A stretch of 24,803 bases of DNA from a virus: positions 1 to 24,803 of IMG/VR virus record IMGVR_UViG_3300038309_000065; one strand, written 5' to 3'. The position numbers and the translations under genes were made by a program. The notes beneath the pieces are model-generated. The model did no database searches. It had not been told where the DNA came from and saw only the letters and a list, made by a program, of their open reading frames with translations. Every line of letters begins with the position of its first letter. The first letter of the stretch is position 1. Shown here in pieces: positions 4,320 through 16,959 of the stretch.

Positions 4320-5594
4320 TTACAGGGTTGAATCCTGAATACTCATGGTCGTTTCTTCCGAGCTGATCCCGGTCCCGCCGCTGGTGTTCAGCAACGCGGT
4401 AAACGGGATTGTCTGGACAATACCCTTGTCGTTGTCGTCTTTCCCGGCGCCGCCCACCTTGATTCTCGGAAGCGTGAACGCCAGAAAATCGGCGGCCGCG
4501 TCGTCGGACGTTGTGAAAACGCTGTACAGGGAGATTTCATCTTCATTGTCGAAATATCCGCGGAAAGTGGTATCGGTGAAGTAGACCGTCATGTTCCCGG
4601 ATACCCGGAGCTTACCGTCGAACACGTCCGGCCGGCTGTTCGAACCGACAACGGGATCCGCAACGGTCGTGTCCGGATTGATGGAAATATCAAGCCCGGT
4701 CAGCAGAGCAACGGCGGCACCGTTCACGTACAGCAATCCGTTCACGGCCGCCAGGATGCCGTATTCGGACATGGCCGTCGGTCCGGTAAAGTACGGCGCT
4801 TCGGACGTGTCGTACCCAGCCATCCCGAGACCGACCACGTTAAAGTCGATCGTGCTCATTCCGGAAGGCGGAAGCTTGATGTCCATGGACGAGAATTTGC
4901 AGTCCGTGAACACTTCCGACTTGTCTATATCGCTGTAATAGTGCTCAATCGTGAAATACGTGTTCGTGTGGCCGCTGGTCGGCATGAAAGTCTTTTTCCC
5001 GACAACGGTAGTGGTGATGGGATCTCCGGCCGCCTTTGCAGCGATATTCACGTTGTCCATGGACTTAACTGTCATAACGGTATCGGTCAGGGCGGTAATC
5101 AGGAAGTTGTGATTGTTGTTGGCTGTGGCCGTGGTGGTCCAGCCGGTCATTCTCACAACGTCCCCGGCCTTAAACCCATCGTCGAGCCAGGAAAAACCCT
5201 CACCGGAAGATTCCCCGGATTCGTCCGGATCGTTCCTGGTGAAAGTGCCTGTCCCGGTCCCGGTGGAAGCCGCGGTAACATCGTTGTTGGCCGCGTCACT
5301 GGCGCCGGCAGTCCAGTCCCGACGGAAAACGGATTCGATCAACATCTGGTAGGATCCCGGGGAAAGCTCCCCGCTCAAGGCACCGCCGATTGAAATCGCG
5401 CCATGCCGCATATCGGAAACCTGCATGTCGGTCCGTTTTTCGTTCGACTCGTAAGTCTCTTTGCTTTTGTCAACCGTGCTGGTAACACGCCGCATATATT
5501 CTGCGGTCGCCGCGTCAACCGCTGCGGGGGTCCCGAGCGCGGTCTGTTCAGCGATAATCAGTTGTTTATTTACGCCTTTTGCAATTGTGGTCAT
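4320..5594 (-). CDS. Major tail tube protein
   Basis: A 424-residue protein with a strong ribosome binding site (AAAGGAG) before ATG at 5594. The N-terminus 'MTTIAKGVNKQLIIAEQTA' followed by 'AAVDAATAEYMRRVTSTVD' is the usual opening of long-tailed phage tail tube proteins that replace a strained N-terminal arm with a beta sandwich. The middle (about residues 130-190) is a Gly/Thr/Asn-rich insert with 'FKAGDVVRMTGW', typical of a small beta domain. The C-terminal half repeats the tube-fold phrase 'LTGLDISINPDTTVADPVVGS'. No sheath gene lies next to it, which supports a non-contractile tail. It is flanked on both sides by RNA hairpins, as expected for a product needed in many copies. Confidence is high for tail tube; the exact family is not proven. 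Confidence 0.85.
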   Translation of the reverse strand: MTTIAKGVNKQLIIAEQTALGTPAAVDAATAEYMRRVTSTVDKSKETYESNEKRTDMQVSDMRHGAISIGGALSGELSPGSYQMLIESVFRRDWTAGASDAANNDVTAASTGTGTGTFTRNDPDESGESSGEGFSWLDDGFKAGDVVRMTGWTTTATANNNHNFLITALTDTVMTVKSMDNVNIAAKAAGDPITTTVVGKKTFMPTSGHTNTYFTIEHYYSDIDKSEVFTDCKFSSMDIKLPPSGMSTIDFNVVGLGMAGYDTSEAPYFTGPTAMSEYGILAAVNGLLYVNGAAVALLTGLDISINPDTTVADPVVGSNSRPDVFDGKLRVSGNMTVYFTDTTFRGYFDNEDEISLYSVFTTSDDAAADFLAFTLPRIKVGGAGKDDNDKGIVQTIPFTALLNTSGGTGISSEETTMSIQDSTL

Positions 5595-6156: not shown

Positions 6157-6673
6157 GATATTTTGCCTTTTTTAATGCCGTTTTCAGGTGCATATGGAAC
6201 TCTGTTCGTGTGACCCCAACGATTCCATAGGGGGACTGCCTTACGCTCCACCCGTATTCCAGCCTGATTGCATACGGGACGTTATTCGAGTAATAATAAA
6301 CATGACCGGCCGCGTCCTGCGGGATTTTCTTCATTGCCCGGGCAACCGCCAGCATGCCGCCCGCGTTTTTTGCCCGGCTTGGATCCCGTGTGTTCGGCTT
6401 TTTTTCATTGATCGAATCAACCCCCAGCATCCAGGACCCGCGAAACAACCCCGGCTTATACCCTGGGGGCGCCGGATATTTCCAGAACCTCGGGTTTCCT
6501 ATCGGGGACCGCTCATCAATCCGGACCATGATCAAGACAAGTAGCTCTTTTGTCATTTCGTCCATGGTGTTAACGGTCTTATCAAGGAATCGCTCGACAT
6601 CAGCCGCAAATCCGCCGCTGGTCTTTTTTACATAGCGTGTCCTTGCCGCTTCCTGGGATTTGGTCATTCCCAT
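6143..6673 (-). CDS. HK97 gp10-like neck/tail completion protein
   Basis: A 176-residue basic protein. The segment 'VYYYSNNVPYAIRLEYGWS' near residues 124-142, followed by a 'PYGIVGVTRTEF' stretch, is the hallmark of the HK97 gp10-like family, as is the earlier 'ERSPIGNPRFWKYPAPPGY'. The start ATG at 6673 overlaps the upstream stop as TAATG, with GGAG just before it. These proteins act at the head-tail joint, and the gene order closure - gp10-like - terminator is common in long-tailed phages. An ATG two codons in is a possible alternative start. Confidence 0.85.
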   Translation of the reverse strand: MGMTKSQEAARTRYVKKTSGGFAADVERFLDKTVNTMDEMTKELLVLIMVRIDERSPIGNPRFWKYPAPPGYKPGLFRGSWMLGVDSINEKKPNTRDPSRAKNAGGMLAVARAMKKIPQDAAGHVYYYSNNVPYAIRLEYGWSVRQSPYGIVGVTRTEFHMHLKTALKKAKYRVTG

Positions 6674-7056
6674 TACGCTCCGGCTCCCTTCAAAAGTCCG
6701 TCAAAAAATAAAACCGTGCCAGCCGGCGCCACTGGAAGCGCCTGTTTAATCTGGTAAATACTGCCCGCCGCGTCTTTTATCCGGTTGCCCTCGTTCGGCT
6801 TCGCAAGTTCGTTTCCGTCAGTGTCGTAAGCGGACAATAAAATTTGCCAGTCCCCAGCCTGGACAAGCCCATGAAAGTTGTTTTCGGTCGATACCGGCAA
6901 AATAACCGCCTTCGCCGTGGCGGACGTGGTTGCCAGCTCGACGGTCTGGGTATTCCGGTTATATGTTCCCGGTGTATCGTAATAGACCGTCACGGTCTGC
7001 CCGTTCCGCTTTATCATGCGGTTAATGTCTTTCGCTGTGGTCGAATATTGGCTCAT
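6673..7056 (-). CDS. Head closure / head-tail joining protein
   Basis: A 127-residue protein with a predicted small beta-barrel: 'KRNGQTVTVYYDTPGTYNR' near the start, then 'AKAVILPVSTENNF', 'GDWQILLSAYDTDGN' and a final 'GSIYQIKQALPVAPAGTVLFFDGLLKGAG'. This alternating beta pattern is typical of stopper proteins that plug the portal-connector channel after packaging. The start overlaps the connector stop as TAATG without a clear ribosome binding site, so translation is probably coupled. Assigned from pattern and position. Confidence 0.75.
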   Translation of the reverse strand: MSQYSTTAKDINRMIKRNGQTVTVYYDTPGTYNRNTQTVELATTSATAKAVILPVSTENNFHGLVQAGDWQILLSAYDTDGNELAKPNEGNRIKDAAGSIYQIKQALPVAPAGTVLFFDGLLKGAGA

Positions 7057-7424
7057 TATGAAAAACTCGTTACGGCCCGGATAAAGGCCTTTTTCTTGCC
7101 CCTGGTTGCCAGCTTGCCGGTCGGATCAAGCAATAAAAGAGACTGGCCATAAGTGGTGGCCTCAAGCTGTTTTCCAAGGTTTGCAAATGATTCTGATAAT
7201 TGCCCTATGCTTCGCCGGGTTGCCTGGCGCTCATAGTTCAGTGATATGAAATGAGCAACCAAAAGCTGCTCCATTTTTTTCGCCTGGGCGGTTGAAACAA
7301 GGGTTGATCCGTCGATGGCCTCGGAAATGATGGTGTTTGCAGTGTTGATCCAGAAGTCCATCGAATCACTGTCAATGTCGGTGTCGATGATATACTGGAC
7401 CTCTGCTGATGTTACACGTGCCAT
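7056..7424 (-). CDS. Head-tail connector protein (gp6-like)
   Basis: A 122-residue, mainly helical protein: 'SAEVQYIIDTDIDSDSMDFW' (helix one), 'INTANTIISEAIDGST', then 'AKKMEQLLVAHFISLNYER' and 'LGKQLEATTYGQSLLLLDPTG'. The arrangement, with 'YGQ..LLLDPTGKLA' near the end, is common in adaptor proteins that bind under the portal. Its own ribosome binding site GGAAGGGG precedes ATG at 7424. In related phages this gene normally follows the capsid gene closely. Here nearly 7 kb of glycan-type genes sit between them. Confidence 0.82.
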   Translation of the reverse strand: MARVTSAEVQYIIDTDIDSDSMDFWINTANTIISEAIDGSTLVSTAQAKKMEQLLVAHFISLNYERQATRRSIGQLSESFANLGKQLEATTYGQSLLLLDPTGKLATRGKKKAFIRAVTSFS

Positions 7425-8132
7425 TTATTTTTTCCCCTTCCAAAGTTTCGGGCTTATGAATTCATACACCTTGTTTGTCCATTCAAGCCCGCACCATTCA
7501 ACCGCTTCTTTCATCTGCTGATAATCGCCGTTTACCATTTTCTCCGGCCAAACAACCTTGACGTTAAGCCCGGCCATAACCATTTCTTCAAAACGCTTTT
7601 TGTGCTGCTCAACCCACCATTGCCAGCCGTCTTCCGTAGTTTTTGCTTTTACTGCCCGGCGGTTATGCTCCTTATCAAACGCCCTCATGAAGCTTGTTCG
7701 CATGCAGGAATTAACAATGTCCTGATCTTTCCGGCGAACAATAATCCATCGAGCATTCGGGAAAGCGTATTCCCAGACCGGCCAGAATTGACAAGCTTTC
7801 GCGCATTTATAAAACCAGTGCCCGCCCGGGTAGCCCTGCTTGACCATGACCGAGCAAATACGGCTTGACCAGTCAACCGGGATCCGGAGTTTTTGGATAT
7901 CGACAAGCGGGTATTGGCCCAGCCGGTCAACCCCGATCGATTCAAAGTAAGGCTTTACAACCGTGTTCCGGATCTCCGCATTTTCGAACATGCCTTTCTG
8001 GTTATTATGGTTCGGCCCTGACAACTCGCCGCCCCAGGCGCCGCACATGTTTATAACGCCGGCCACCATGGACGTTCCGGACCGGGCGCATCCGGTTATC
8101 AAAATCGGGGGTTGTTCGATTCTGGTTTTCAT
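7425..8132 (-). CDS. Sulfotransferase B (PAPS-dependent type)
   Basis: A 235-residue protein from ATG at 8132; a TTG at 8141 is an alternative start. The 5'-phosphosulfate loop 'LITGCARSGTSM' lies at residues 11-22. The 3'-phosphate motif with 'RWIIVRRKDQDIVNS' is at about 128-142. A Trp-rich middle (DGWQWWVEQHKKRF) precedes a C-terminal helical part. Sulfotransferases of this family move sulfate from PAPS to hydroxyl or amino groups of sugars or other acceptors, so the host or phage must supply PAPS. It is the last cassette gene before the connector gene, and its stop directly abuts that start. The acceptor is unknown. It is clearly different from sulfotransferase A, so it may sulfate another position. 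Confidence 0.82.
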   Translation of the reverse strand: MKTRIEQPPILITGCARSGTSMVAGVINMCGAWGGELSGPNHNNQKGMFENAEIRNTVVKPYFESIGVDRLGQYPLVDIQKLRIPVDWSSRICSVMVKQGYPGGHWFYKCAKACQFWPVWEYAFPNARWIIVRRKDQDIVNSCMRTSFMRAFDKEHNRRAVKAKTTEDGWQWWVEQHKKRFEEMVMAGLNVKVVWPEKMVNGDYQQMKEAVEWCGLEWTNKVYEFISPKLWKGKK

Positions 8133-8833
8133 TTTCCGCAATACTCCCGTTCGTAAAGATCACGGTTTCGCTGCAAAAGCTTTTTCCAGCCCGGGGGCTT
8201 TGTTTTCGCATGCTCTTGATGAAAAGCGATAAGGTCGTCACGGTTTTTAAAGAAAACGCCCTTCATTCTCACCCGGTCCCTGAAAGCGTCATCGTCGTAT
8301 CCGTACCCGCCTGTGAGCCGCTCATCAAACCCGCCAACCTCTTTGAACAAGTCCCGGTGAAGGCATGAGCAGAAATGATACTGCTTGTTGTTGTGGGTGC
8401 CGTGTTGATACCAGACGAATTCCTTTTTCTGGTCCTTTTTCGCCCTGGGCGCCGCCTTGCATGCACAAACCACGTAAGAAAAAGGCCTGGCCTCGAATTC
8501 TTCATCCAGCCCGCCCAGGATATCGTTTACATGAAGGCATTCAGGACTTGTTAAGACGACATATTCACCACAAGCCGCTTCCACCCCGCGGTTAAACGCC
8601 GTTGACGGGTTGAAGCACGGTTTTTTGAGGCCGTCACTGATAATGGTGATCAAGAATTTGAATTGATCAGCAATGTCGATCAGCTCCCGGGTTTGTTTGG
8701 GGTTCATTTTCGAATCACGAACGATTACAACTTCAAAATCGTACCGCAGGCCGTATAACTCGGCAAACGATTCAAGCGTTTTTTGAAGCTGTTCGGCCCG
8801 TTCGTAATAGGGCATGATGATGCTATATTTCAT
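8129..8833 (-). CDS. Family 2-type glycosyltransferase
   Basis: A 234-residue protein from ATG at 8833, which lies inside the end of sulfotransferase A (11-bp overlap). It opens with 'MKYSIIMPYYERAEQLQKTL', the standard GT2 start (hydrophobic strand, then PYYER). A nucleotide-binding 'FEVVIVRDS' follows. The usual DxD position reads 'YVVLTSPECLH', so the metal-binding acids are not in the commonest form. The C-terminal 'GGFDERLTGGYGYDDDAFRDR' is the classical acceptor-side motif with acidic residues. It should transfer a sugar from a nucleotide-sugar donor in the cytoplasm. No membrane segment is visible, so it is a soluble or loosely bound enzyme. It sits between the two sulfotransferases, which suggests that its product is sulfated. 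Confidence 0.85.
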   Translation of the reverse strand: MKYSIIMPYYERAEQLQKTLESFAELYGLRYDFEVVIVRDSKMNPKQTRELIDIADQFKFLITIISDGLKKPCFNPSTAFNRGVEAACGEYVVLTSPECLHVNDILGGLDEEFEARPFSYVVCACKAAPRAKKDQKKEFVWYQHGTHNNKQYHFCSCLHRDLFKEVGGFDERLTGGYGYDDDAFRDRVRMKGVFFKNRDDLIAFHQEHAKTKPPGWKKLLQRNRDLYEREYCGK

Positions 8834-9386
8834 ATCCAAACACCTCGAAATCTTTCCGGGAGTGTTCAACCACAAGGTCAAGCTCTTTTCTCGTAAAATA
8901 TTCTTTCGGGTCTTTAGCTGGCTTTGTGGTTGTCTTGTTTTTGTGCGGGAACTGTGATATTGATCTGTCGCGCCCCCCTGTAAACGGAAGGTCGCATAAC
9001 GCATCCGGAAGGTCTTTTAACCGTATCCATAAATCAACCCCAGCGCGTTCAACCCACCTGTATTGAGGATCAAAGAAGTTTGGCACTCGCAAAACATCAT
9101 TCGGGGGATTCGCCTTTACGTCGAGCATATATTCCATAAATTCAGAAAAGCTTCTCTGGTCATTGTCACGCTCTTTGGTGAACCACCACCAGGTAAACAT
9201 GCGGTCATAGGGATTACGGACCAGGGTGAACTTAAAGTATGATTGTAATTCATCGGGGACTCTCCATTCGTGCTTAGTCTGTATCTTCCGCCCGGCATAA
9301 AAACCCCGGCACCATCTCCCCATACTGGTTGACCCGGTATGGGGTATCTGGATACAAACAAAGTTGAAGTTATCGCTGGCGATCAT
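8823..9386 (-). CDS. Sulfotransferase A (carbohydrate sulfotransferase-like)
   Basis: A 187-residue protein. 'QIPHTGSTSMGRW' at residues 13-25 fits the 5'-phosphosulfate binding loop, and 'FTLVRNPYDRMFTWWWF' at about 53-69 fits the 3'-phosphate binding motif. The RNPYDR form is typical of the Sulfotransfer_2 group that modifies polysaccharides. ATG at 9386 overlaps the end of the methyltransferase gene by 17 bp and has an AGGGGG site. The C-terminal 'PKEYFTRKELDLVVEHSRKDFEVFGYEI' is typical of the last helix of such enzymes. It is short for the family but complete. PAPS is the expected donor. The acceptor is unknown; the neighbouring glycosyltransferases suggest a sugar. Confidence 0.83.
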   Translation of the reverse strand: MIASDNFNFVCIQIPHTGSTSMGRWCRGFYAGRKIQTKHEWRVPDELQSYFKFTLVRNPYDRMFTWWWFTKERDNDQRSFSEFMEYMLDVKANPPNDVLRVPNFFDPQYRWVERAGVDLWIRLKDLPDALCDLPFTGGRDRSISQFPHKNKTTTKPAKDPKEYFTRKELDLVVEHSRKDFEVFGYEI

Positions 9387-9954
9387 TCCACGCCCCCTTA
9401 TATGTTCCGATGGTTACAAGCCCGTTCGGGTTCGTGCCCTCATGGATCAGGGCGAAATCTTCTTTAATAACATCGTCATGATTCCAAAAGCTTATATGGC
9501 TTTCATACGGATTGCCGTAAACCGCCCCGTCTTGTTCTGTCTTGCCGCCGGTCGGGATGGATAAAAAGCACGGCACGCCTTCCGCTTTGACTCTCTGCAG
9601 GACGGCTTTACCGGTACTTTTTTCCATGTGCTCGATAACGTCCGAGAATATGATGGCATCGCACGGCCAGTCCCTGAGAAAATCACGGTTCAAGATAAAG
9701 TCGGCAGCATCGACACAAAACAGCTCGTCATATTTACCGTATAGCTTGAACTTAGAAATGTACTCCGGCCATATCTCCATGCCCGCCACCGTATCGACAA
9801 CGCCCTTCAGCAGCTCGGCCCAACGGCCGTCACCGCACCCGACATCAACCACGATCCGGGCGCCCAGGCGCTTAATCTCGTCGATTATTCGCGCTTCTGC
9901 TTCTTTTGGTTGCTGTGATCTTGGCATTACCGGCCCTTCTTCGGTTTCTTGCAT
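9370..9954 (-). CDS. Class I SAM-dependent methyltransferase
   Basis: A 194-residue protein with a clear SAM-binding motif I, 'IVVDVGCGDGRWAELL' (residues 34-49). An acidic residue at the end of strand two (AGMEIW) follows, then 'CDAIIFSDVIEHME' (99-111), the usual post-motif found in UbiE/COQ5-type and sugar methyltransferases. The C-terminal part has 'VPCFLSIPTGGKTEQDG' and 'ESHISFWNHDDV'. A second ATG at 9927 follows GAAGG and is a possible true start. In this neighbourhood O-methylation of a sugar, or capping of a glycan chain, is likely, but the substrate cannot be read from sequence. Confidence 0.82.
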   Translation of the reverse strand: MQETEEGPVMPRSQQPKEAEARIIDEIKRLGARIVVDVGCGDGRWAELLKGVVDTVAGMEIWPEYISKFKLYGKYDELFCVDAADFILNRDFLRDWPCDAIIFSDVIEHMEKSTGKAVLQRVKAEGVPCFLSIPTGGKTEQDGAVYGNPYESHISFWNHDDVIKEDFALIHEGTNPNGLVTIGTYKGAWNDRQR

Positions 9955-9967
9955 TTTTTACCCATGA

Positions 9968-10261
9968 TCAGGAGCCTTTCATAAAGTATGTTCTGGACTC
10001 TTCCATGACGTTTATCCCGCCACGACGGATAGCCTCATTAAACCGTTGGTCGATTTCGCCCCGCAGTCTGACGCGGTGTTCGCCGGCAGTCCTGGCCACC
10101 TTTTCACAAGCGGCGATCACTTCCGGATCCGGGTTTTCTTTTTTCCGTTCATCAATAGCGATATGGTTTGCCCGGGAACACTTAATATCTTCATTTATCA
10201 ACTTGTCGATCAATTCACTGAACGGACAGATGTAATCATAAACTTCAGGAACTCTGGGCAT
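9968..10261 (-). CDS. Small helical protein of unknown function in the cassette
   Basis: A 97-residue charged protein from ATG at 10261, chosen because AGGAAGGGG lies just upstream; an earlier in-frame start would overlap most of the preceding gene's end. It reads 'MPRVPEVYDYICPFSELIDK', then a predicted helix-turn-helix hairpin with 'SRANHIAIDERKKENPDPEV' and 'VRLRGEIDQRFNEAIRRGG'. I do not recognise a family. No signal peptide, membrane segment or cysteine cluster is present. It overlaps the glycosyltransferase upstream and precedes the methyltransferase by 13 bases, so it belongs to the same transcription unit. It could be a small accessory subunit for a neighbouring enzyme, but this is a guess from position only. 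Confidence 0.7.
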   Translation of the reverse strand: MPRVPEVYDYICPFSELIDKLINEDIKCSRANHIAIDERKKENPDPEVIAACEKVARTAGEHRVRLRGEIDQRFNEAIRRGGINVMEESRTYFMKGS

Positions 10262-11018
10262 GATTAACCCCTTCCTCCGGCATGGCTTCAGCACCAGCCG
10301 GTCTTGTCTTTCGTTTGCGCTCCGCGCCTTCCTGGTGATAAACAACGGAACCCATGGCCATTGAAAACTTTGCTCCGGCCTCATGGCAGCGGGTGAAAAA
10401 GCGACGGTCCGGCGGATCAATTCTTTTGCCGATCCCGGTCAATTCCCATGGCCCGCATGCTTCCCACCATTTTCGGTGCATGACATACGGCATGGTTAAC
10501 GTGTTCAGCCACCCGCCGCGCTGCTCTTCCGTCTGCAGTTCGCCCGGGCGACGGTGCTTATCTACCAACCGCAAAAACTCCAGGGCGTCAAAATCAGGGC
10601 TTGCAATGGTTCCCAGATCCGCCGTAATGACATGGGGTCCCTTTATCGGGGTAATGTGCTGCGGGCTTACAATGACATTCTCATCGGCCCACTGGACCAA
10701 TTCTTTCAGCCAGTTCCGACCGAAAACAACGTCCGCATCTGTCCGGACACAAAAGTCATTCATGGCAAACCCGGCATCAAAGGTTTTGTTTATTTCACCA
10801 CGAACGTTCGGCACATACCCAACGTCCGGATTTGTTTCGTAGACTTCATGGTGTACCCACCGGTTATCATGGAGCCATGCCAGCACGTCCGGCGAAGCGT
10901 TCCAGGTGACAACGATCAGATCAAAATCCGTCATTCCGGCATTGACCATCAAAGAATTGATGCAGCTTTCAAGCAGATCAGCCGCCGTTGAAACGCATGT
11001 ACAGACGCTAACCCTCAT
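10245..11018 (-). CDS. Glycosyltransferase, GT-A fold (family 2-like)
   Basis: A 257-residue protein. It begins with 'MRVSVCTCVSTAADLLESCI', a GT-A type first strand and helix. 'DFDLIVVTWNASPDV' corresponds to the second strand. 'NDFCVRTDADVVFGRNW' contains a DxD motif (Asp94, Asp96) for metal and nucleotide sugar binding. The C-terminal half has 'PYVMHRKWWEACGPWE' and 'PDRRFFTRCHEAGAKF', the usual acceptor-binding and D/E-R-type region. ATG at 11018 overlaps the end of the preceding gene by 11 bp with AAGGTG as ribosome binding site. The C-terminal 25 residues are basic and low complexity. Donor and acceptor are unknown. Confidence 0.83.
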   Translation of the reverse strand: MRVSVCTCVSTAADLLESCINSLMVNAGMTDFDLIVVTWNASPDVLAWLHDNRWVHHEVYETNPDVGYVPNVRGEINKTFDAGFAMNDFCVRTDADVVFGRNWLKELVQWADENVIVSPQHITPIKGPHVITADLGTIASPDFDALEFLRLVDKHRRPGELQTEEQRGGWLNTLTMPYVMHRKWWEACGPWELTGIGKRIDPPDRRFFTRCHEAGAKFSMAMGSVVYHQEGAERKRKTRPAGAEAMPEEGVNHAQSS

Positions 11019-11760
11019 AAGTCACCTTTATTGCTTCCCATATTGTCGTCGGTTCGGGGTTGTCGTGCCGAATCCGGTTGTTGTGATTCAGGTTCGCCCC
11101 GCCGTGCCAATGAATACCGATAGTTTTCGGATGAAGCTTCCGGCGGCCCCGGAACACCATTTTATGGCGCCTTCCCCACTGCAGGTCCCTGAACGGTGAT
11201 ATCAACCGGGCCTGTTGCCATACAGTATCGGCCGGCCAGGTGCCAACATGATCAAACACTTTGTTTCCGCAGCTTTCGTAATCGTTCGCATCGTAATAAA
11301 AAAACGCCAACTCAAGCAGGTAAGCCCAGATATCGTTCGGCCGGCCCTGCATGAAGGATACCGGGATGTACCCGCTACCGAATCGAATCAACTGCATATC
11401 GGCTTTAATTCTTGGGACCGGCTTTACATAAACGATATCCATGTCTGTTACGGTCCCGCCCCTGGTTGCCATAAGGTGCCAGGCCAGAAGGTCGCTTTTG
11501 TGTATCTCCGGAGCTTCCAATTCGTGGATATCGGGGGCAATATCGGCGATATGGACAATGGACAGGTTTTTAAGGTTCGGCAGCCATGACGTATAATCCG
11601 GGCCGGTATAATGGTTCATGTCCTGTTTTTCCGGCCAGTCGCCGCCGCGTCCGGCGTCGTTCGTGATCAGCGTTACATGGTCATTCAGCGCACAAAGAGA
11701 ATGCAGCGTCATGTATCGCAAAAAGCTCATTATCGGGTTGCCCCAGTATGTCCAGATCAT
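11008..11760 (-). CDS. DxD glycosyltransferase (capsule/mannosyl type)
   Basis: A 250-residue protein starting 'MIWTYWGNPIMSFLRYMTL' at 11760. This start is seven bases after GAGG and overlaps the radical SAM stop; ATG at 11766 is an alternative. The opening 'IWTYW' and the segment 'HKSDLLAWHLMATRGGTVTDMDIVYVKP' show the common GT-A pattern of proteins with a sugar-binding DxD motif (Asp106, Asp108), related to capsular polysaccharide and Och1-like transferases. The last third has 'IGIHWHGGANLNHNNRI', a plausible metal or acceptor site. No membrane helix is visible. It likely adds a sugar to a growing glycan; the donor is unknown. Confidence 0.82.
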   Translation of the reverse strand: MIWTYWGNPIMSFLRYMTLHSLCALNDHVTLITNDAGRGGDWPEKQDMNHYTGPDYTSWLPNLKNLSIVHIADIAPDIHELEAPEIHKSDLLAWHLMATRGGTVTDMDIVYVKPVPRIKADMQLIRFGSGYIPVSFMQGRPNDIWAYLLELAFFYYDANDYESCGNKVFDHVGTWPADTVWQQARLISPFRDLQWGRRHKMVFRGRRKLHPKTIGIHWHGGANLNHNNRIRHDNPEPTTIWEAIKVTYEG

Positions 11761-12725
11761 ACCCATGCCTCATGATCATATTTTCTTGTCATTATCCCCA
11801 GGGCCGCGTTGTAATCTCCGTAATAACAGCGGTCACAAACAAGGCCATTGAACGGCACCTGCTTTTTATAAAAATCTTTTATCTCGGATATATGGCACAT
11901 CCTCATGTTTTCCGGGAAATTGCCGGTGTTACCGTTCTGGGCGTACTGGACGCCGCAGCAGGGGTAAAGATACCCGTCCGGTGCAATCAGCGGTTTTAAC
12001 AGGCTGATGTTACAATACGGTAAGCCGTGGGTATGGTCGGCCCGGGCCTGATAAATCACTCTCGAATCGTCAATACCGGATTCCCTCACGTCTTCTTTGA
12101 TGCCGTGCATCGGGGGGACCCCATTAACATTCATAATATCGGCCACCAGCCGGACATGAGTAAACTTGTGTTCATTCGCAAAGGCCAGGCACTTCATGAA
12201 TTTTTCAAATTCCCACTTTTCGGTCAGGACGTATGAAAAGGCCCAGTCAATATTAGCGGCCGGCACGATGACGGCCATCTTTTCCAAAAGCTTGTCGACG
12301 TCCCGGAAATCGCTCACGCTGATACGGCACCATCCGACTTTATTCAACACGCCATCGATCTTCTCCAGGGCCAGGCCGTTCGATACAAGCCCGACGCCGA
12401 CATGAAGGTCGTGTAAGTATTCAATCAGGTAGTCCAGCCAGGGATATAGGCAGGGTTCACCGCCTCCGGTGATTGTTACGGCTTTCATCCCCAGGTCGGC
12501 CAGGTCGCACAAGGCGTTTGCCATGGCGTTTAATTCCAGCTCCTGGCTTTTCTCCCGTTCGCTGCATGAGCAAAAAGGGCAGTTCAGGTTACACTTGTTC
12601 GTCGGGCAAATCTGAGCGTGGACCGGCTTTATATTGCCGTCGGCATCGACGCACAGGTCTTTTCTTTTAATCAGCTTGGCTGGAAAGACGCTGGCCGCTG
12701 AATATGATTCTGTCAGTTCTGACAT
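11757..12725 (-). CDS. Radical SAM enzyme with Twitch-type auxiliary cysteines
   Basis: A 322-residue protein. The start at 12725 is chosen because GGAGGA precedes it by 6 bases; an earlier in-frame ATG at 12737 lies before this ribosome binding site. The CX3CX2C cluster 'CNLNCPFC' (Cys45, 49, 52) binds the 4Fe-4S centre that cleaves SAM. 'AVTITGGGEPCLYP' is the GGE motif that holds the SAM amino group. The C-terminal part carries CX12GX4C (YCNISLL…PDGYLYPCC) and later 'CDRCYYGDY', the layout of a Twitch or shortened SPASM domain, which would hold a second iron-sulfur cluster. Such enzymes modify peptides or sugars. The gene is tightly packed between two glycosyltransferases, so sugar or glycan modification is a reasonable guess. 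The substrate is not known. Confidence 0.86.
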   Translation of the reverse strand: MSELTESYSAASVFPAKLIKRKDLCVDADGNIKPVHAQICPTNKCNLNCPFCSCSEREKSQELELNAMANALCDLADLGMKAVTITGGGEPCLYPWLDYLIEYLHDLHVGVGLVSNGLALEKIDGVLNKVGWCRISVSDFRDVDKLLEKMAVIVPAANIDWAFSYVLTEKWEFEKFMKCLAFANEHKFTHVRLVADIMNVNGVPPMHGIKEDVRESGIDDSRVIYQARADHTHGLPYCNISLLKPLIAPDGYLYPCCGVQYAQNGNTGNFPENMRMCHISEIKDFYKKQVPFNGLVCDRCYYGDYNAALGIMTRKYDHEAWV

Positions 12726-13426
12726 GGGTTCCTCCATAGACGGTTGATTACGTTGTCAGAGGGCAGTTCATGGAGCCGGGGGGACCCGGACCATGCGATT
12801 AGGCGGGTATCTTCCGGTATCTGGTTGTTGTGATTCCGGAGATACCGCTTTCCGATAATATAGTTTTCTGACGTCAGGCTTTGAATGCGTGGCACCTTGT
12901 CCACATCGATACATTCCGCAATAAACCCCTGATCTCCGTGCCGCCAGTCACGGTGCCGGCTGTTCCGGCGGATGGAAGCATATGTGTTTTTTCTGAACGT
13001 TTCGTAAATATGAGACAGCTTATAAAACGATCCGGCCATAACGCCGGAAGCGAAGTTCTCTTTTTTGTCGGGATCCTTCAAGTTCTGGTTGAATCCCCGC
13101 AGTGATGCAAACTCGACGCGTTCAGCGATATCGCCAAGCTTTTCAATGTCGCCAAGGATGATGGTATCAAGGTCAAGATATATGGCCGGTACATTCGGCA
13201 GGTCCGGGCGGAAAAGCTCAATCTTTGACCACCAGCCTGGCCAGTTGTGCTTTAACGGTCTGACTTCGCAGCAATGATCAAGCTCATGCTCCGGGAAGTC
13301 TGTCAGGCATCGCAATTCGGGGTAAAAGTAAGCTACATCGGAACACCGGCTTAAAGCGTCCGATATCCGCTCGACGTATTCAACGCCGTATGGACCGCCT
13401 GATTTTAGGACCGTGTATATGATCAT
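12713..13426 (-). CDS. Glycosyltransferase with DxD (GT8-like)
   Basis: A 237-residue protein. 'NVPAIYLDLDTIILGDIEKL' near residues 78-97 contains a DxD motif (Asp85, Asp87) of the kind seen in GT8 and related enzymes that bind nucleotide sugar and manganese. 'ASGVMAGSFYKL' and 'WRHGDQGFIAECID' fit the later parts of the same fold (the GDQ motif is typical). ATG at 13426 overlaps the stop of the small upstream gene as ATGA, and its own end overlaps the radical SAM start. There is no signal peptide or membrane segment. Likely a cytosolic sugar transferase; donor and acceptor unknown. Confidence 0.8.
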   Translation of the reverse strand: MIIYTVLKSGGPYGVEYVERISDALSRCSDVAYFYPELRCLTDFPEHELDHCCEVRPLKHNWPGWWSKIELFRPDLPNVPAIYLDLDTIILGDIEKLGDIAERVEFASLRGFNQNLKDPDKKENFASGVMAGSFYKLSHIYETFRKNTYASIRRNSRHRDWRHGDQGFIAECIDVDKVPRIQSLTSENYIIGKRYLRNHNNQIPEDTRLIAWSGSPRLHELPSDNVINRLWRNPCQN

Positions 13427-13575
13427 TTACCCACCCATACCGAGAACCACAGCCAATGGATTGACACATGCCACCAATATCCATCCATAACCGCCGCTGT
13501 TGAATTTGTGTTCTTATGCGAGGATACGCTGGGCACCATTCTAAACCGGTGCCCGGCATGCAATTCGATGGTCAT
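13423..13575 (-). CDS. Small conserved-looking protein, 50 residues, Trp-rich C-terminus
   Basis: An ATG at 13575 overlaps the preceding gene's stop (ATGA), and its TGA stop overlaps the next gene's ATG the same way. The frame fills the whole gap between the two genes. It encodes 50 residues with a His/Arg-containing N-terminus (MTIELHAGHRFRMVPSVSS) and a Trp- and Val-rich tail (GYWWHVSIHWLWFSVWVGK). This tail is amphipathic or weakly hydrophobic, so membrane association is possible. No known domain is recognised. The double four-base overlap is strong evidence that it is translated with its neighbours. Function unknown. Confidence 0.7.
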   Translation of the reverse strand: MTIELHAGHRFRMVPSVSSHKNTNSTAAVMDGYWWHVSIHWLWFSVWVGK

Positions 13576-14303
13576 AACGCCAGCGCCTCTTCCAAACTCA
13601 CTTTTTCAAAACAATCAATCGCACTGTCCGGACTGCAATTGTAAATCCGGACACACTTTGATTTCGCGTCCTGCTTAATCGGCTTAAAGCATCTCAGGTG
13701 CTTATCATAATTCGGCCTTTTGATCATTTTCGGATCTTTGAACTTTTCGAAATGAGCTCCGTGCCAGTGTGAAACCTCTTTCCCGGCAATCTGCCCGGAC
13801 TTCATATCAAGACCGAACAGGACGATGTTTAAGGCGCCCAGATGGACAGCCAGGTCAATCGCCGCCCCGCCGCCGTTACCGTTCCAGACAAGCTTTTTTC
13901 TCGCATCGGACAGGCCGTATTTTTTTGAATGGTCCCTTTGAGCATATTTCACATGAAGGCCCTGGCTGAACTGTGATTCTTCAAACTTGTTACAGCAGGA
14001 CACTTTGACTGACCGGACTTTTTCAAGGCCCTTCACATGAGCGTTAAACCACGAACCATCGACGAACAGCAGAAAGTCAATCCAGGAGCCCAGCTTATAA
14101 GCGTTGTTTATCCCGATCACGTGCCGATCGTGCAGCGGCTTATAATAATCAGAATAAACAGACGCCGGTTCCTGTTGGTCGCAAACCTTTTTGATCAGCT
14201 TTTCAGGAACGCCGAACAACCGAGGCATGGAAAGGCCGCCGCCTATAATAAAGGCCGTGCCGCCTTCCCATATTCTCGGTATTTTCCAGGGGTTGACTTT
14301 CAC
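13572..14303 (-). CDS. Phage glycosyltransferase-like protein (DUF115/GT42-like)
   Basis: A 243-residue protein beginning with GTG at 14303, with AAAGGTG as ribosome binding site, overlapping the end of the exported-protein gene region. 'GTAFIIGGGLSMPRLFG' near the start and 'IGINNAYKLGSWIDFLLFVD' about residues 63-82 form a nucleotide-binding-like pattern. 'WNGNGGGAAIDLAVHLGA' with 'NIVLFGLDM' is the central motif shared with DUF115 and GT42 (CST-I) type proteins often found in phage genomes. 'SHWHGAHFEKF' supplies conserved histidines. CMP-sugar transfer would be the GT42 role, but donor and substrate are not established. It is the first gene of the cassette in transcription order. Confidence 0.7.
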   Translation of the reverse strand: MKVNPWKIPRIWEGGTAFIIGGGLSMPRLFGVPEKLIKKVCDQQEPASVYSDYYKPLHDRHVIGINNAYKLGSWIDFLLFVDGSWFNAHVKGLEKVRSVKVSCCNKFEESQFSQGLHVKYAQRDHSKKYGLSDARKKLVWNGNGGGAAIDLAVHLGALNIVLFGLDMKSGQIAGKEVSHWHGAHFEKFKDPKMIKRPNYDKHLRCFKPIKQDAKSKCVRIYNCSPDSAIDCFEKVSLEEALAL

Positions 14304-14306
14304 AAA

Positions 14307-14684
14307 TCACCTTTCGCCGTATGTGATCATGATTCGATGACCGGACGACAACGTACATTCTGAATACTTGATATACGGCCGCACCTTCATTCCATCGAAA
14401 TATTTGCATGACTCATCGTTCGCAGCGTTGGCCGTCACCTTCATAATTATCGGGCCGGTCGCGGAAGCATGGCGGACAATCAAAACATCGGTCCCCGTAC
14501 TCCCCGGGTTGAACTGTATGGACACAAGATAACGATCACTTCCGGCGTCATAGTTCGCGTCCATGGCCGAAATGTCGACGTACTGGTTGAACTCTCCACC
14601 GGTTACAACCGTATTCGCGGCCCAGGCCCAGGCCGGAACAAGGATGAAGGCGGTCAGGATGATTGTTATAAAAAGCTTTTTCAT
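14307..14684 (-). CDS. Exported protein of unknown function
   Basis: A 125-residue protein with a Sec signal peptide: basic start 'MKKLF', hydrophobic core 'ITIILTAFILVPAWAW' and an AWA-A type cleavage site before 'ANTVVTGG', so mature length is about 103. The rest is a beta-rich domain: 'RYLVSIQFNPGSTGTDVLIV', 'TGPIIMKVTANA', then two cysteines (ESCKYF and SECTLS) that could form a disulfide, and a 'HRIMITYGER' ending. It follows the preceding gene by two bases and takes AAGGA from its 3' end as ribosome binding site. A signal peptide on a protein inside a capsid operon is unusual: the product would leave the cytoplasm. It could act at the cell surface. Confidence 0.8.
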   Translation of the reverse strand: MKKLFITIILTAFILVPAWAWAANTVVTGGEFNQYVDISAMDANYDAGSDRYLVSIQFNPGSTGTDVLIVRHASATGPIIMKVTANAANDESCKYFDGMKVRPYIKYSECTLSSGHRIMITYGER

Positions 14685-14687
14685 GGC

Positions 14688-15095
14688 TTATCCTTTAACC
14701 AGCTCCGCCAGCTTCGCTTTTGCCTCTTCCGGCCGGAGCTTCTTTTCGTTCATGACTTTTTTAGTTGCCCGGTTGACGATGTTAAAAAAGCCGTGTTCTT
14801 CGTGGGGCACGATGTCAAATTCCGGCGCGTCGTTTTTGGGTTCGGGCTCTTTTTCGGGTTCGGGCGCGGGTGTTTTTGCCTTGGCTTCGGCTTTTGCTTC
14901 TTTCACCGCAGCATGGCTGGGGGCTTCTTCAAACAAGTCCCTCATCCCCATGGGGACCTCATCTTCCGTAGCCATAAAAACCTGTCCTTCATTGATCTGC
15001 TTTACTTCTCCATCGATCTCCAGGTAAGCAGTTCCGCCACCCTTCTTTACCCACTTGATTTCACCCGCCCGGGCTTTCTTCTTATCTTTCGCCAT
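14688..15095 (-). CDS. Small phage protein with Pro/Glu/Lys-rich linker
   Basis: A 135-residue protein. ATG at 15095 is chosen because AGGAG precedes it by 7 bases; a longer frame to 15131 lacks a good site. The N-terminal half is a small basic domain ('KKGGGTAYLEIDGEVKQINE', 'GQVFMATEDEVPMGM'). A linker rich in Ala, Lys, Pro and Glu (about residues 60-90) follows. The last 45 residues form another small domain ('EHGFFNIVNRATKKVMNEKK'). It lies directly after the capsid gene. It may be a head-associated or accessory protein, but no family is recognised. Confidence 0.65.
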   Translation of the reverse strand: MAKDKKKARAGEIKWVKKGGGTAYLEIDGEVKQINEGQVFMATEDEVPMGMRDLFEEAPSHAAVKEAKAEAKAKTPAPEPEKEPEPKNDAPEFDIVPHEEHGFFNIVNRATKKVMNEKKLRPEEAKAKLAELVKG

Positions 15096-15167
15096 TGTCG
15101 ATCTCCTTTGCTTGGTTAGCAGTGATTCCATGGCCGGGTTGCCCCGGCCATTAAGAATCAGAGACTG

Positions 15168-16256
15168 TTAAGAGCAGTGGCAAACGCCGCACTGGTTGGC
15201 TGCGTCGGCGCGTACCTGCGGGATTTCAATTGCCATGGTCTTGTAGTTAAAAACCATGGGATCGGCGGACCATTCCAGGTTGGTCAAGCCCATACCACGA
15301 ACCAGACGAACCGTGTCTTTCTGCAGGTTCACCATGACGGCATTGCCGGTCGGCAGAGTGTCGTTCTTTTTACAGAACTTGATGCCTTCCAGCTTCATAA
15401 CGCGCTCGCGCAGGGTCAGGTTCTGCGCAGTCGTGGTGGCGTAGTCGTCGTCAAACTTGGTGGCGCAGTCACGCGGGTAGTACAGGCCGAACGGCCCGGG
15501 CTGATTCTTGTCGATCAGCGCCTGAAGCATCAGCTTAATGTCGGCGTAGATGTTGGCCAAGGTGTCGCTCTTCCAGTTGGTCCCCATGGAAACTGTGTTC
15601 CGGTTCGGGTGATTAAGGTAGCTGTAAATCAACCCGCCACCGAACTTATACGTGACGTTGGTAAACAACATCTGTTCACGTTTCAGCATGACGGCACGAG
15701 CCGCTGCCCTTGCCTGATCCACGTTCAGCGGGTTGCCCATCTTACGGGATACGGCCACTTCACGCGCGGTCAGTAGGAAATCAACATGGTTGATCGGCAG
15801 CGGGAGGTACTCAACCCCGTAGTCGATCCGGTCATTATCCCCGCGGACAACGCCGTCCATGGACAGGGTCGCCGTGAAAGGCTGATCCATGGTGTGGTGT
15901 TCGAGCACGGTAGTAGCCATGCCGTTGCCGCCCAGATCAAACACAAGACCCTCGGTTTCCAGGTCGTTTACGCCGTCAAGCGTGGTGCTTTTGACTTCCA
16001 CAAGAACGTCGTCGAGCTGCTTCCACTCATCCCGGCGAAGCGTCGCGTTCCGCTGGATTGGTACGGACTGGTAGCATTTCGGGTCTTTGGGATCGCCGCC
16101 GATAAACCGGGTAATGCAGGACTGACCGGTCTTTTCATCGATAAACGGCCGCATGGCGAACGTGTTCAGGTTTCCGTTGACATCAAGGAATGCTCCATTG
16201 GCACCGGAAAACACGTTGGCCGCGCTGGGTGAAATAATCGCGGTTTTCTCATTCAT
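15168..16256 (-). CDS. Major capsid protein (HK97 fold, encapsulin-like subgroup)
   Basis: A 362-residue protein. 'LRRDEWKQLDDVLVEVKSTTLDGV' near residue 75, 'HHTMDQPFTATLSMDGVVRG' and 'YLPLPINHVDFLLTAREVAVSRKMG' are patterns shared by phage major capsid proteins of the group related to encapsulin/Linocin-type shells. It is preceded by the protease/scaffold and decoration genes, the usual order. The last residues contain three cysteines in 'CGVCHCS', an unusual tail. The ribosome binding site GAAAGGAGAACA lies within a 12-bp hairpin (see finding). Many copies are needed, so expression is probably high. The function as capsid protein is well supported; the exact family is an inference. Confidence 0.87.
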   Translation of the reverse strand: MNEKTAIISPSAANVFSGANGAFLDVNGNLNTFAMRPFIDEKTGQSCITRFIGGDPKDPKCYQSVPIQRNATLRRDEWKQLDDVLVEVKSTTLDGVNDLETEGLVFDLGGNGMATTVLEHHTMDQPFTATLSMDGVVRGDNDRIDYGVEYLPLPINHVDFLLTAREVAVSRKMGNPLNVDQARAAARAVMLKREQMLFTNVTYKFGGGLIYSYLNHPNRNTVSMGTNWKSDTLANIYADIKLMLQALIDKNQPGPFGLYYPRDCATKFDDDYATTTAQNLTLRERVMKLEGIKFCKKNDTLPTGNAVMVNLQKDTVRLVRGMGLTNLEWSADPMVFNYKTMAIEIPQVRADAANQCGVCHCS

Positions 16257-16434: not shown

Positions 16435-16959
16435 TTATTTAAAGATAACCCTGATCCGGCGGTTGTAGCCCAGCGTGGCGTCAATGGCGCCCTCACCGGA
16501 AGACTCCTTTCCGGAACTTTCGGAAAGGTCTATGGCTTCATCGGCAACGGCCACGATGTTCATCGGGTAGATGGTCACGGCCGCGGACACTTCGTTGGAG
16601 CTTTCGGCTTCGACTACATCGGCGGTGTATTTGTTAACATAGCCGTTCCCGGCGCTTTCCAGCTCATCGCCGATCGCCACACTTTCGCCGTCGGACAGGA
16701 TCAGATAACCCTTATCACCGGCATGGGGGGTCCATACCCGGACCAGGTCGTCGGCGGCGTAAGCGTCGTCCTTATCGTTACCCTGAAGGGAATCTTCAAG
16801 TGCCACCCGAACCGGCGCCAGGTTTCCGCCAGCTTCCGAATGCGCGGCAATACCGGAAGCGCCCCGGACAACAAGCATGCCGGGGGTGATCGCCGACGCA
16901 GCGGCAATCTCTTCGATGTTCGGTACACCCATGCTTTTTACAAGAATTGAATTTGCCAT
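16435..16959 (-). CDS. Head decoration-like protein
   Basis: A 174-residue protein with a strong AGGAGG ribosome binding site. It is beta-rich and opens with 'ILVKSMGVPNIEEIAAASAI'. 'PGMLVVRGASGIAAHSEAGG', 'PVRVALEDSLQGNDKDDAY' and 'YLILSDGESVAIGDELES' suggest a small beta domain typical of DUF2190-type decoration proteins. The tail is low complexity (SESSGKESSGEGAID). It precedes the capsid gene as in many phages. The family is not proven; a decoration or stabilising role is inferred from position and composition. Confidence 0.65.
   Translation of the reverse strand: MANSILVKSMGVPNIEEIAAASAITPGMLVVRGASGIAAHSEAGGNLAPVRVALEDSLQGNDKDDAYAADDLVRVWTPHAGDKGYLILSDGESVAIGDELESAGNGYVNKYTADVVEAESSNEVSAAVTIYPMNIVAVADEAIDLSESSGKESSGEGAIDATLGYNRRIRVIFK

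Follow-up and report, generated by a model that had tools for sequence, protein, structure and literature searches.

Gene content of the capsid-to-adaptor interval

The window analyzed here is the whole 24,803-nucleotide stretch of the virus record IMGVR_UViG_3300038309_000065. Between its capsid-side genes and the head-tail adaptor gene lie about ten enzyme genes and one small gene. Listed from the adaptor side toward the head genes, the features are:

6673-7056, minus strand: Hc1, flank gene
7056-7424, minus strand: head-tail adaptor, downstream border of the island (phrog_302, E 7e-8)
7425-8132 (or 8141), minus strand: Sulfotransfer_3-type sulfotransferase (ST3), connector-proximal frame gene (PF13469, 32.9 bits, cut-off 27)
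8129-8833, minus strand: GT2 family glycosyltransferase (PF00535, E 4.8e-10); start moved from 9004, set by overlap with the Sulfotransfer_2 gene
8823-9386, minus strand: Sulfotransfer_2-type (carbohydrate) sulfotransferase (ST2) (PF03567, 31.3 bits, cut-off 22; phrog_3347 galactose-3-O-sulfotransferase, E 7e-10)
9370-9954, minus strand: SAM-dependent methyltransferase (PF13489, E 8e-10)
9968-10261, minus strand: small protein of 97 aa with no Pfam match; start picked by a 17-nt overlap and an RBS-like GGAGG
10245-11018, minus strand: GT2-like glycosyltransferase (weak PF00535 match under the cut-off, E 0.0019)
11008-11766, minus strand: DXD-motif glycosyltransferase-like protein (weak PF04488 match under the cut-off, E 0.02; DMD motif in the sequence)
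11757-12737, minus strand: radical SAM enzyme with a C-terminal Cys cluster, SPASM/twitch-like (PF04055, E 3.6e-12; CxxxCxxC); NCBIfam gives just partial MoaA/SPASM-type matches
12713-13426, minus strand: GT8-like glycosyltransferase, recurrent in the island (phrog_1962 glycosyltransferase, E 1.2e-31)
13572-14303, minus strand: DUF115/GT42-like, Maf-like glycosyltransferase, capsid-proximal frame gene (phrog_4603 'alpha-2;3-sialyltransferase', E 4e-31)
14307-14684, minus strand: small protein (u125) with an N-terminal signal-like hydrophobic segment (KD 2.19 at residues 4-22); no PHROG match, private to the window
14688-15131, minus strand: conserved small protein after the capsid gene (HMM matches 243 ORFs of the loci), present in some cassette-less relatives too
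15168-16256, minus strand: major capsid protein, upstream border of the island (phrog_771, E 2e-17)
16435-16959, minus strand: head decoration protein, proposed glycan acceptor (phrog_766, E 6e-11)
16459-16536, minus strand: C-terminal loop of the head decoration protein, rich in Ser and Gly (AIDLSESSGKESSGEGAIDATLGYNR, residues 142-167); proposed site of O-glycosylation, with low pLDDT and predicted to be flexible

An earlier note on this DNA had described a glycosylation-sulfation cassette between the capsid and connector genes, and this was borne out when we derived every coordinate anew on the minus strand. The overlaps between genes, given there as 4 to 17 bases, measured 4-25 nt for most genes, and a gap of 145 nt lies within the cassette at 13427-13571. 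Two small genes had been counted in the interval. The one encoding the 97-aa protein is inside it and no second one was found there; the capsid gene and the cassette are separated by two further small genes, at 14307-14684 and 14688-15131. The GC content of the cassette genes is 46-54%, slightly under that of the head genes and similar to that of the adaptor. Recent insertion in one phage was rejected on the grounds that cassette GC is near that of the adaptor and the frame of the cassette is lineage-wide.

A constant frame around a variable middle

Using the capsid protein as bait, we gathered 169 distinct relatives. The capsid-to-adaptor interval is complete in 84 of them, and our frame counts use these 84. 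Interval length ranges from 82 to 9777 bp, and 77 of the 84 intervals contain cargo. The expectation that the connector gene closely follows the capsid gene in this phage type holds for the 7 cassette-less relatives (gaps of 82-910 bp) and fails elsewhere. The DUF115/GT42-like gene heads the cargo in 70 intervals, the PAPS-motif sulfotransferase ST3 is present in 64-65 and adjoins the adaptor in 55, and a GT8-like gene occurs in 46. With its frame repeated in 70 or more relatives, the cassette is far beyond chance, and a chance mosaic was rejected. The genes between GT42 and ST3 differ among relatives, and several are singletons; for example, the radical SAM, Sulfotransfer_2, DXD glycosyltransferase and methyltransferase genes of the window are largely private to it. 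The gene set was thus found to recur between capsid and connector genes as a frame, with GT42 first and a sulfotransferase last in most of the 84 loci, and to vary in its own composition. These 84 intervals show a conserved link in related phages and support the earlier proposal of a co-directional, presumably late-expressed glycan pathway with PAPS-type sulfotransferases. We hold with moderate confidence that the segment is a lineage-wide, variable O-glycan island acting on the virion.

The capsid-proximal glycosyltransferase

A sequence search of the PDB with the GT42 profile gave nothing significant, so we built a structure model of the GT42-like protein (AF2, pLDDT 92.9). Its best Foldseek match was Maf (5mu5; E 4.7e-5, prob 1.0, TMq 0.57), followed by the GT42 sialyltransferases CstII (E 8e-5) and Cst-I, and the model contains the central Rossmann domain seen in Maf and CstII. 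Because the protein scores 18.3 bits (E 0.002) against Pfam PF01973 (MptE-like), under the curated cut-off of 34.6, we class it by its Maf-like fold and do not count it among the Maf proteins. The usual donors of GT42 enzymes are CMP-nonulosonates. NeuB, which serves nonulosonate synthesis, was not found in 26 long contigs of relatives; the donor would therefore be host-supplied or another sugar, and for the same reason we do not claim the first sugar as a nonulosonate.

Sulfotransferases and PAPS supply

In addition to a PF13469 score above the cut-off, ST3 has both PAPS-binding motifs: R20-S21-G22 (5'-PSB) and R137 and S145 (3'-PB; R-x7-S) are invariant in 17 sequences of relatives. A search for ST3 in isolated phages gave none at E 1e-3. 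ST2 likewise combines a PF03567 score above the cut-off with visible PAPS motifs (TGSTS and RNPYDR), with Thr replacing the Ser of the 3'-PB. No close relatives of ST2 were found in viral contigs and phages; the PF03567 family search gave no match, and its controls were silent too. A candidate for the PAPS-making step lies beside ST3 in 6 loci of relatives, and none is present in the window. This protein scores 65.8 bits against PF01583, compared to 21.1, has the P-loop kinase motifs DGD..R and DFSD.GR, and matches almost only APS kinases in the PDB. Its C-terminal part is divergent, and we label it "APS kinase homologue" because its score of 60.3 bits is under the curated cut-off of 138.7 for the TIGR00455 adenylyl-sulfate kinase equivalog. 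The cassette sulfotransferases would transfer sulfate from PAPS to a glycan, with the APS kinase homologue beside ST3 in relatives as indirect support.

The decoration-protein loop as candidate acceptor

The model of the decoration protein resembles the capsid decoration proteins of Sf11 and TW1. Ser makes up 22% of its loop, compared to 5% of the remainder of the protein. With the loop scored as present at at least 2 Ser and at least 12 residues, a threshold chosen after the data were seen, 119 of 128 GT42-positive relatives have a Ser/Gly-rich loop, compared to 0 of 12 GT42-negative relatives; the loop is short or Ser-poor in 9 GT42-positive phages. Loop and GT42 change together on the capsid tree (Pagel LR 39.9, p 4.5e-8), and two control traits of the decoration protein gave p 0.48 and 0.47 in the same test. 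The tree holds just about 8 independent GT42 changes, 6 of which share a branch with a change in the loop (expectation 1.3, p 2.5e-4), and a conservative independent-pairs test placed 4 of 4 pairs in the expected direction (p 0.125). Loop length also correlates with interval length (rho 0.52). This pattern suggests that the island probably decorates the Ser-rich loop on the phage's own capsid.

Alternatively, the virion could be glycosylated and sulfated on the capsid, tail tube or adaptor, with the change in the decoration loop as an indirect correlate. In mycobacteriophages, the capsid and tail tube subunits reportedly carry glycans at their C-termini (Freeman 2023, cited by PMC12619734), and the tail protein of the window has a similar Ser-containing stretch, DESGESSGEG. 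A phmmer search among the ORFs of relatives gave no homologue of this tail protein, so its loop was read in the window alone. We regard another virion acceptor as unlikely, given that a search of every ORF in the first 125 loci placed 16 of 17 matches to an SSGxxSSG-type motif in the decoration protein and that the co-evolution is specific to the decoration loop.

Virion or host envelope

The earlier note had offered both virion proteins and the infected cell surface as acceptors. Alteration of the host envelope (O-antigen, capsule or S-layer), leading to superinfection exclusion or serotype change, is suggested by the cargo families GT2, GT11, GT9, FkbM and Polysacc_synt_2, which are typical of surface polysaccharide clusters, and by the placement of related glycosyltransferases under "moron" in PHROGs. 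However, a TM-like segment is present in only 17 of 433 cargo ORFs, the rest being soluble, and the window cassette has no TM protein besides the signal-like u125. Neither Wzx nor GtrA was found in the 26 long contigs of relatives, in searches whose controls gave matches. Gtr-type serotype conversion, which also uses phage-encoded glycosyltransferases, requires a GtrA-like membrane flippase in company with GtrB and GtrC; the control of the GtrA search matched in 7 genomes. A host-surface role is disfavored because membrane and flippase machinery was not found. The late structural position of the cassette, a first gene that is Maf-like and not polyprenyl-linked, and evolution linked to a capsid-protein loop also argue against envelope modification, which we consider improbable, and the virion is favored over the cell surface.

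A permissive insertion site that gathers unrelated morons, with no single pathway, would fit a middle region that differs so greatly among relatives, but appears very unlikely given that the first and last genes are fixed, nearly all cargo has glycan, sulfate or methyl functions, and an APS kinase homologue can accompany ST3. Hypermodification of phage DNA with glycosylated, sulfated or methylated bases, for which phage systems with glycosyltransferases and sulfotransferases have been proposed (Iyer 2013, cited by PMC10829341), is highly improbable for a cassette that lies inside a head-tail late operon and not next to replication genes, and it leaves the decoration-loop correlation unexplained; a Tet/JBP search gave no match, and its control was silent as well.

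A proposed pathway for capsid O-glycans

We return to O-glycosylation of the decoration protein. In the pathway that we envision, the soluble Maf-like DUF115/GT42-like enzyme would act in the cytoplasm and place the first sugar directly on a Ser or Thr residue of a virion protein. The decoration protein, whose gene lies just upstream of that for the capsid protein, offers the most likely acceptor in its loop. The products of the variable middle genes (GT2, GT8-like, DXD glycosyltransferase, methyltransferase and radical SAM) would then extend and tailor the O-glycan, and the sulfotransferases would cap it with sulfate from PAPS, which the APS kinase homologue of some relatives may help to make. 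The capsid would in this way acquire a negatively charged glycan coat that varies among lineages, with particle shielding or adhesion as its likely use. We tentatively propose that this phage lineage builds hypervariable sulfated O-glycans on the decoration loop, with a Maf-type primer at one fixed end of the island and a sulfotransferase at the other, as a phage counterpart of proteoglycans and flagellin glycan islands that generates gene-swapped capsid "glycotypes".

If this proposal is correct, a bacterial virus carries a sulfated sugar coat, and charged capsid glycans are a surface trait that is common and evolves fast among environmental phages, with bearing on adsorption to particles and mucus, immune recognition of phages, and phage display. 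With this island, phage sulfotransferases gain a setting, a probable acceptor and an order of steps open to testing. A function, O-glycosylation of virion proteins, is also proposed for the widespread unexplained family that includes P1 PmgO, D3 orf7 and phrog_4603.

Comparison with known systems

The closest parallel in fold is with the Maf flagellin O-glycosyltransferases (5mu5). Maf modifies Ser/Thr of surface-exposed loops with no fixed sequon, although apolar flanks were reported in A. caviae (PMC11339370), and its action precedes the export of flagellin (PMC4065374). What we propose here shares with Maf the O-glycosylation, in the cytoplasm, of Ser/Thr in exposed loops of a protein that is later polymerized. 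In contrast to the three-domain Maf, the island enzyme is a stand-alone domain of 243 aa, its proposed acceptor is a capsid decoration protein, and, as noted above, nonulosonate synthase was not found in the relatives' long contigs.

Homologous enzymes of the phrog_4603 family are encoded by cultured phages, where they are annotated merely as hypothetical, morphogenetic or "alpha-2;3-sialyltransferase". For example, D3 orf7 lies between head and connector genes (the GT42 profile matches a close D3-group homologue at E 1e-20), PmgO lies in the morphogenetic operon of P1 alongside a second glycosyltransferase, and Caulobacter phage CcrSC has gp516. Unlike the window, D3 has few or no extra glycosyltransferases, and no sulfotransferase was seen in the phrog_4603 regions of D3, P1 or CcrSC.

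Phage-encoded glycosyltransferases are known to modify the capsid and tail tube of mycobacteriophages (Freeman et al. 2023, via PMC12619734), similar to the action on virion proteins proposed here; a sulfotransferase, a Maf-like primer, an APS kinase and a framed variable island are not mentioned in the sources consulted. Sulfotransfer_3 (PF13469) genes, in turn, have been described in marine OM43 phages and Synechococcus phage S-SRM01, as two MVGs with "unclear" function (PMC10580990). Their occurrence in those phages is sporadic, whereas in the lineage described here the sulfotransferase is a near-core gene with a fixed position and, in some relatives, a putative PAPS supply.

Layout of the cassette

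The window, a 24.8-kb viral contig fragment, carries a siphovirus late module on the minus strand in the order terminase, portal, morphogenesis protein, protease, head decoration, capsid, two small genes, cassette, adaptor, head closure, neck, tail tube, tape measure. The features used here are:

16435-16959, minus strand: head decoration protein
15168-16256, minus strand: major capsid protein
7425-14303, minus strand: cassette, between the two small genes (capsid side) and the adaptor

The cassette genes and their Pfam and PHROG matches were as the earlier note had described them, while starts and overlaps needed small corrections. Both sulfotransferases exceed their Pfam cut-offs (32.9 vs 27; 31.3 vs 22). 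Three glycosyltransferases (DXD, GT8-like and the second GT2) score below theirs, though phrog_1962 matches the GT8-like protein strongly (E 1e-31). A protein of 125 aa (14307-14684) separates the capsid-side small gene from the first cassette gene; it has a signal-peptide-like start, MKKLFITIILTAFILVPAWAWA, and no relatives of it were found in the collected loci.

Recurrence of the island in relatives

Because viral and genome collections were scanned with the capsid protein rather than the cassette as bait, the genes inside the island were not selected for. The scans yielded 256 loci representing 169 distinct capsid proteins, and in 84 the capsid-to-adaptor interval is complete; its length ranges over 82-9777 bp (median 4452), with the maximum fixed by the 10-kb flank. 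Of these intervals, 71 contain GT42, the DUF115/GT42-like first gene of the cassette, and in 70 no other recognised cargo gene precedes it. ST3, the adaptor-proximal Sulfotransfer_3-type sulfotransferase, is present in 64 (65 counting L038, where overlapping ORF models mask it); in 55 intervals no more than 60 bp separate it from the adaptor. Seven intervals carry neither gene and are shorter than 1 kb, including those of cultured Brevundimonas phage MaInes and Halorubrum phage Hardycor1. GT8-like genes occur in 46/84 intervals, and the variable middle also holds GT2, GT1-like, GT9 and GT11 glycosyltransferases, FkbM and other methyltransferases, Polysacc_synt_2 dehydratases, an epimerase, an aminotransferase, a UDP-sugar dehydrogenase, and radical SAM and B12-radical SAM enzymes. 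The island is thus a trait of the lineage, its ends fixed and its contents exchangeable.

Individual loci have their own peculiarities. One cassette (L166, 5550-9056) includes zinc alcohol dehydrogenase, TPP-enzyme (E1_dh), short-chain dehydrogenase and O-methyltransferase genes; such a set for tailoring small molecules or sugars is unusual within a phage late operon. Another island contains a B12-binding radical SAM enzyme (L088, 7818-9008), and in a third locus an ORF with collagen-like or Ser-Gly repeats (TSGATGTSGESGSSG) lies downstream of GT42 (L007, 12672-13076).

A Maf-like enzyme and its proposed acceptor

For an AlphaFold2 model of GT42, built from 27 relatives (mean pLDDT 92.9), the best match in the PDB is the Magnetospirillum Maf (5mu5; E 4.7e-5, probability 1.0); next come two GT42 sialyltransferases, CstII and Cst-I, and MptE-type HPPK. 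The gene product falls under the Pfam cut-off for PF01973, and we therefore call it Maf-like rather than Maf. Maf O-glycosylates Ser/Thr of surface-exposed flagellin loops with no fixed sequon, apolar flanks being reported in A. caviae (PMC11339370), and acts ahead of flagellin chaperone binding and export (PMC4065374).

Homologues occur in cultured phages. D3 has a homologous frame between capsid and connector genes (orf7 region; L261, 2687-3145); at the same place in the D3-related phage phPA-G, a gene annotated as sialyltransferase matches the window's GT42 family (profile E 1e-20). The P1 homologue is pmgO (L262, 2444-3106), in the pmg morphogenetic operon together with the glycosyltransferase pmgQ, and that of Caulobacter CcrSC heads a short gene run including a methyltransferase. 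A testable function can now be proposed for PmgO-type genes.

Comparison of flanking head genes revealed a Ser/Gly-rich C-terminal loop in the window's decoration protein, AIDLSESSGKESSGEGAIDATLGYNR. Among all ORFs of 125 loci, 16 of 17 matches to an SSGxxSSG-type motif fall in this protein. By a threshold picked after the data were looked at, 119/128 GT42-bearing phages have a long, Ser-rich loop, against 0/12 phages lacking GT42, whose loops are of the kind AVTTTSSLG. GT42 and loop co-evolve on the capsid-protein tree (Pagel-type test, LR 39.9, 4 df, p 4.5e-8), and 6/8 GT42 changes share a branch with a loop change (1.3 expected, p 2.5e-4); these tests rest on about eight GT42 changes, and few events can inflate them. 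Control traits of the decoration protein gave p 0.48 (length of another variable region) and 0.47 (Ser fraction outside the loop). A strict, underpowered independent-pairs test gave 4/4 (p 0.125), and loop length correlates with island length (rho 0.52, n=71, without phylogenetic correction). The decoration protein model, in which the loop has low pLDDT, matches among others the capsid decoration proteins of Sf11 and TW1 and the base of the phi29 head fibre. The loop is probably the glycan acceptor.

In the window's tail tube protein (4320-5594), a DPDESGESSGEG stretch at 5196-5234 resembles the loop and is a possible second acceptor. In one relative, a Fib_succ_major domain is fused to the tail tube protein (L201, 10380-11411).

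Sulfotransferase and possible PAPS supply

Residues expected of PAPS-binding loops in ST3 (R-S-G; R-x7-S) are invariant across 17 relatives. A small kinase gene immediately adjoins ST3 in six relatives:

L027, 16360-16854: APS-kinase homologue beside the sulfotransferase (also in L012, L095, L166, L191 and L228)

The kinase matches APS kinase PF01583 at 65.8 bits, and a PDB search with its profile gives almost exclusively APS kinases (best E 2.5e-16). Its length is below that of typical APS kinases, and its score is under the TIGR00455 equivalog cut-off. The presence of this kinase next to ST3 is the best genetic sign of real PAPS-dependent sulfation. The window itself has no APS-kinase-like gene.

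Site of action and known systems

The cassette could instead act on the cell surface, a reading disfavoured by the scarcity of membrane functions: even weak TM-like segments occur in only 17/433 cargo ORFs, about half being buried GT42 strands, and searches of 26 long contigs turned up neither Wzx flippase nor GtrA, while their controls gave matches. NeuB was not found in these contigs either. A membrane-free cytoplasmic pathway suits proteins assembled into virions in the cytoplasm. For action on the virion, we infer that the Maf-like enzyme would prime Ser of the decoration loop, enzymes of the variable middle would extend and methylate the glycan, and sulfation would come last. What the analysis shows directly is the gene frame, the folds, the motifs and the co-evolution. 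The benefit may be shielding or adhesion.

In the literature searched, neither sulfated virion glycans nor this framed island nor a decoration-loop acceptor is described. Virion glycosylation is already known in mycobacteriophages, according to PMC12619734 (citing Freeman 2023). Isolated sulfotransferase genes are also known from phages, their function given as unclear (PMC10580990).
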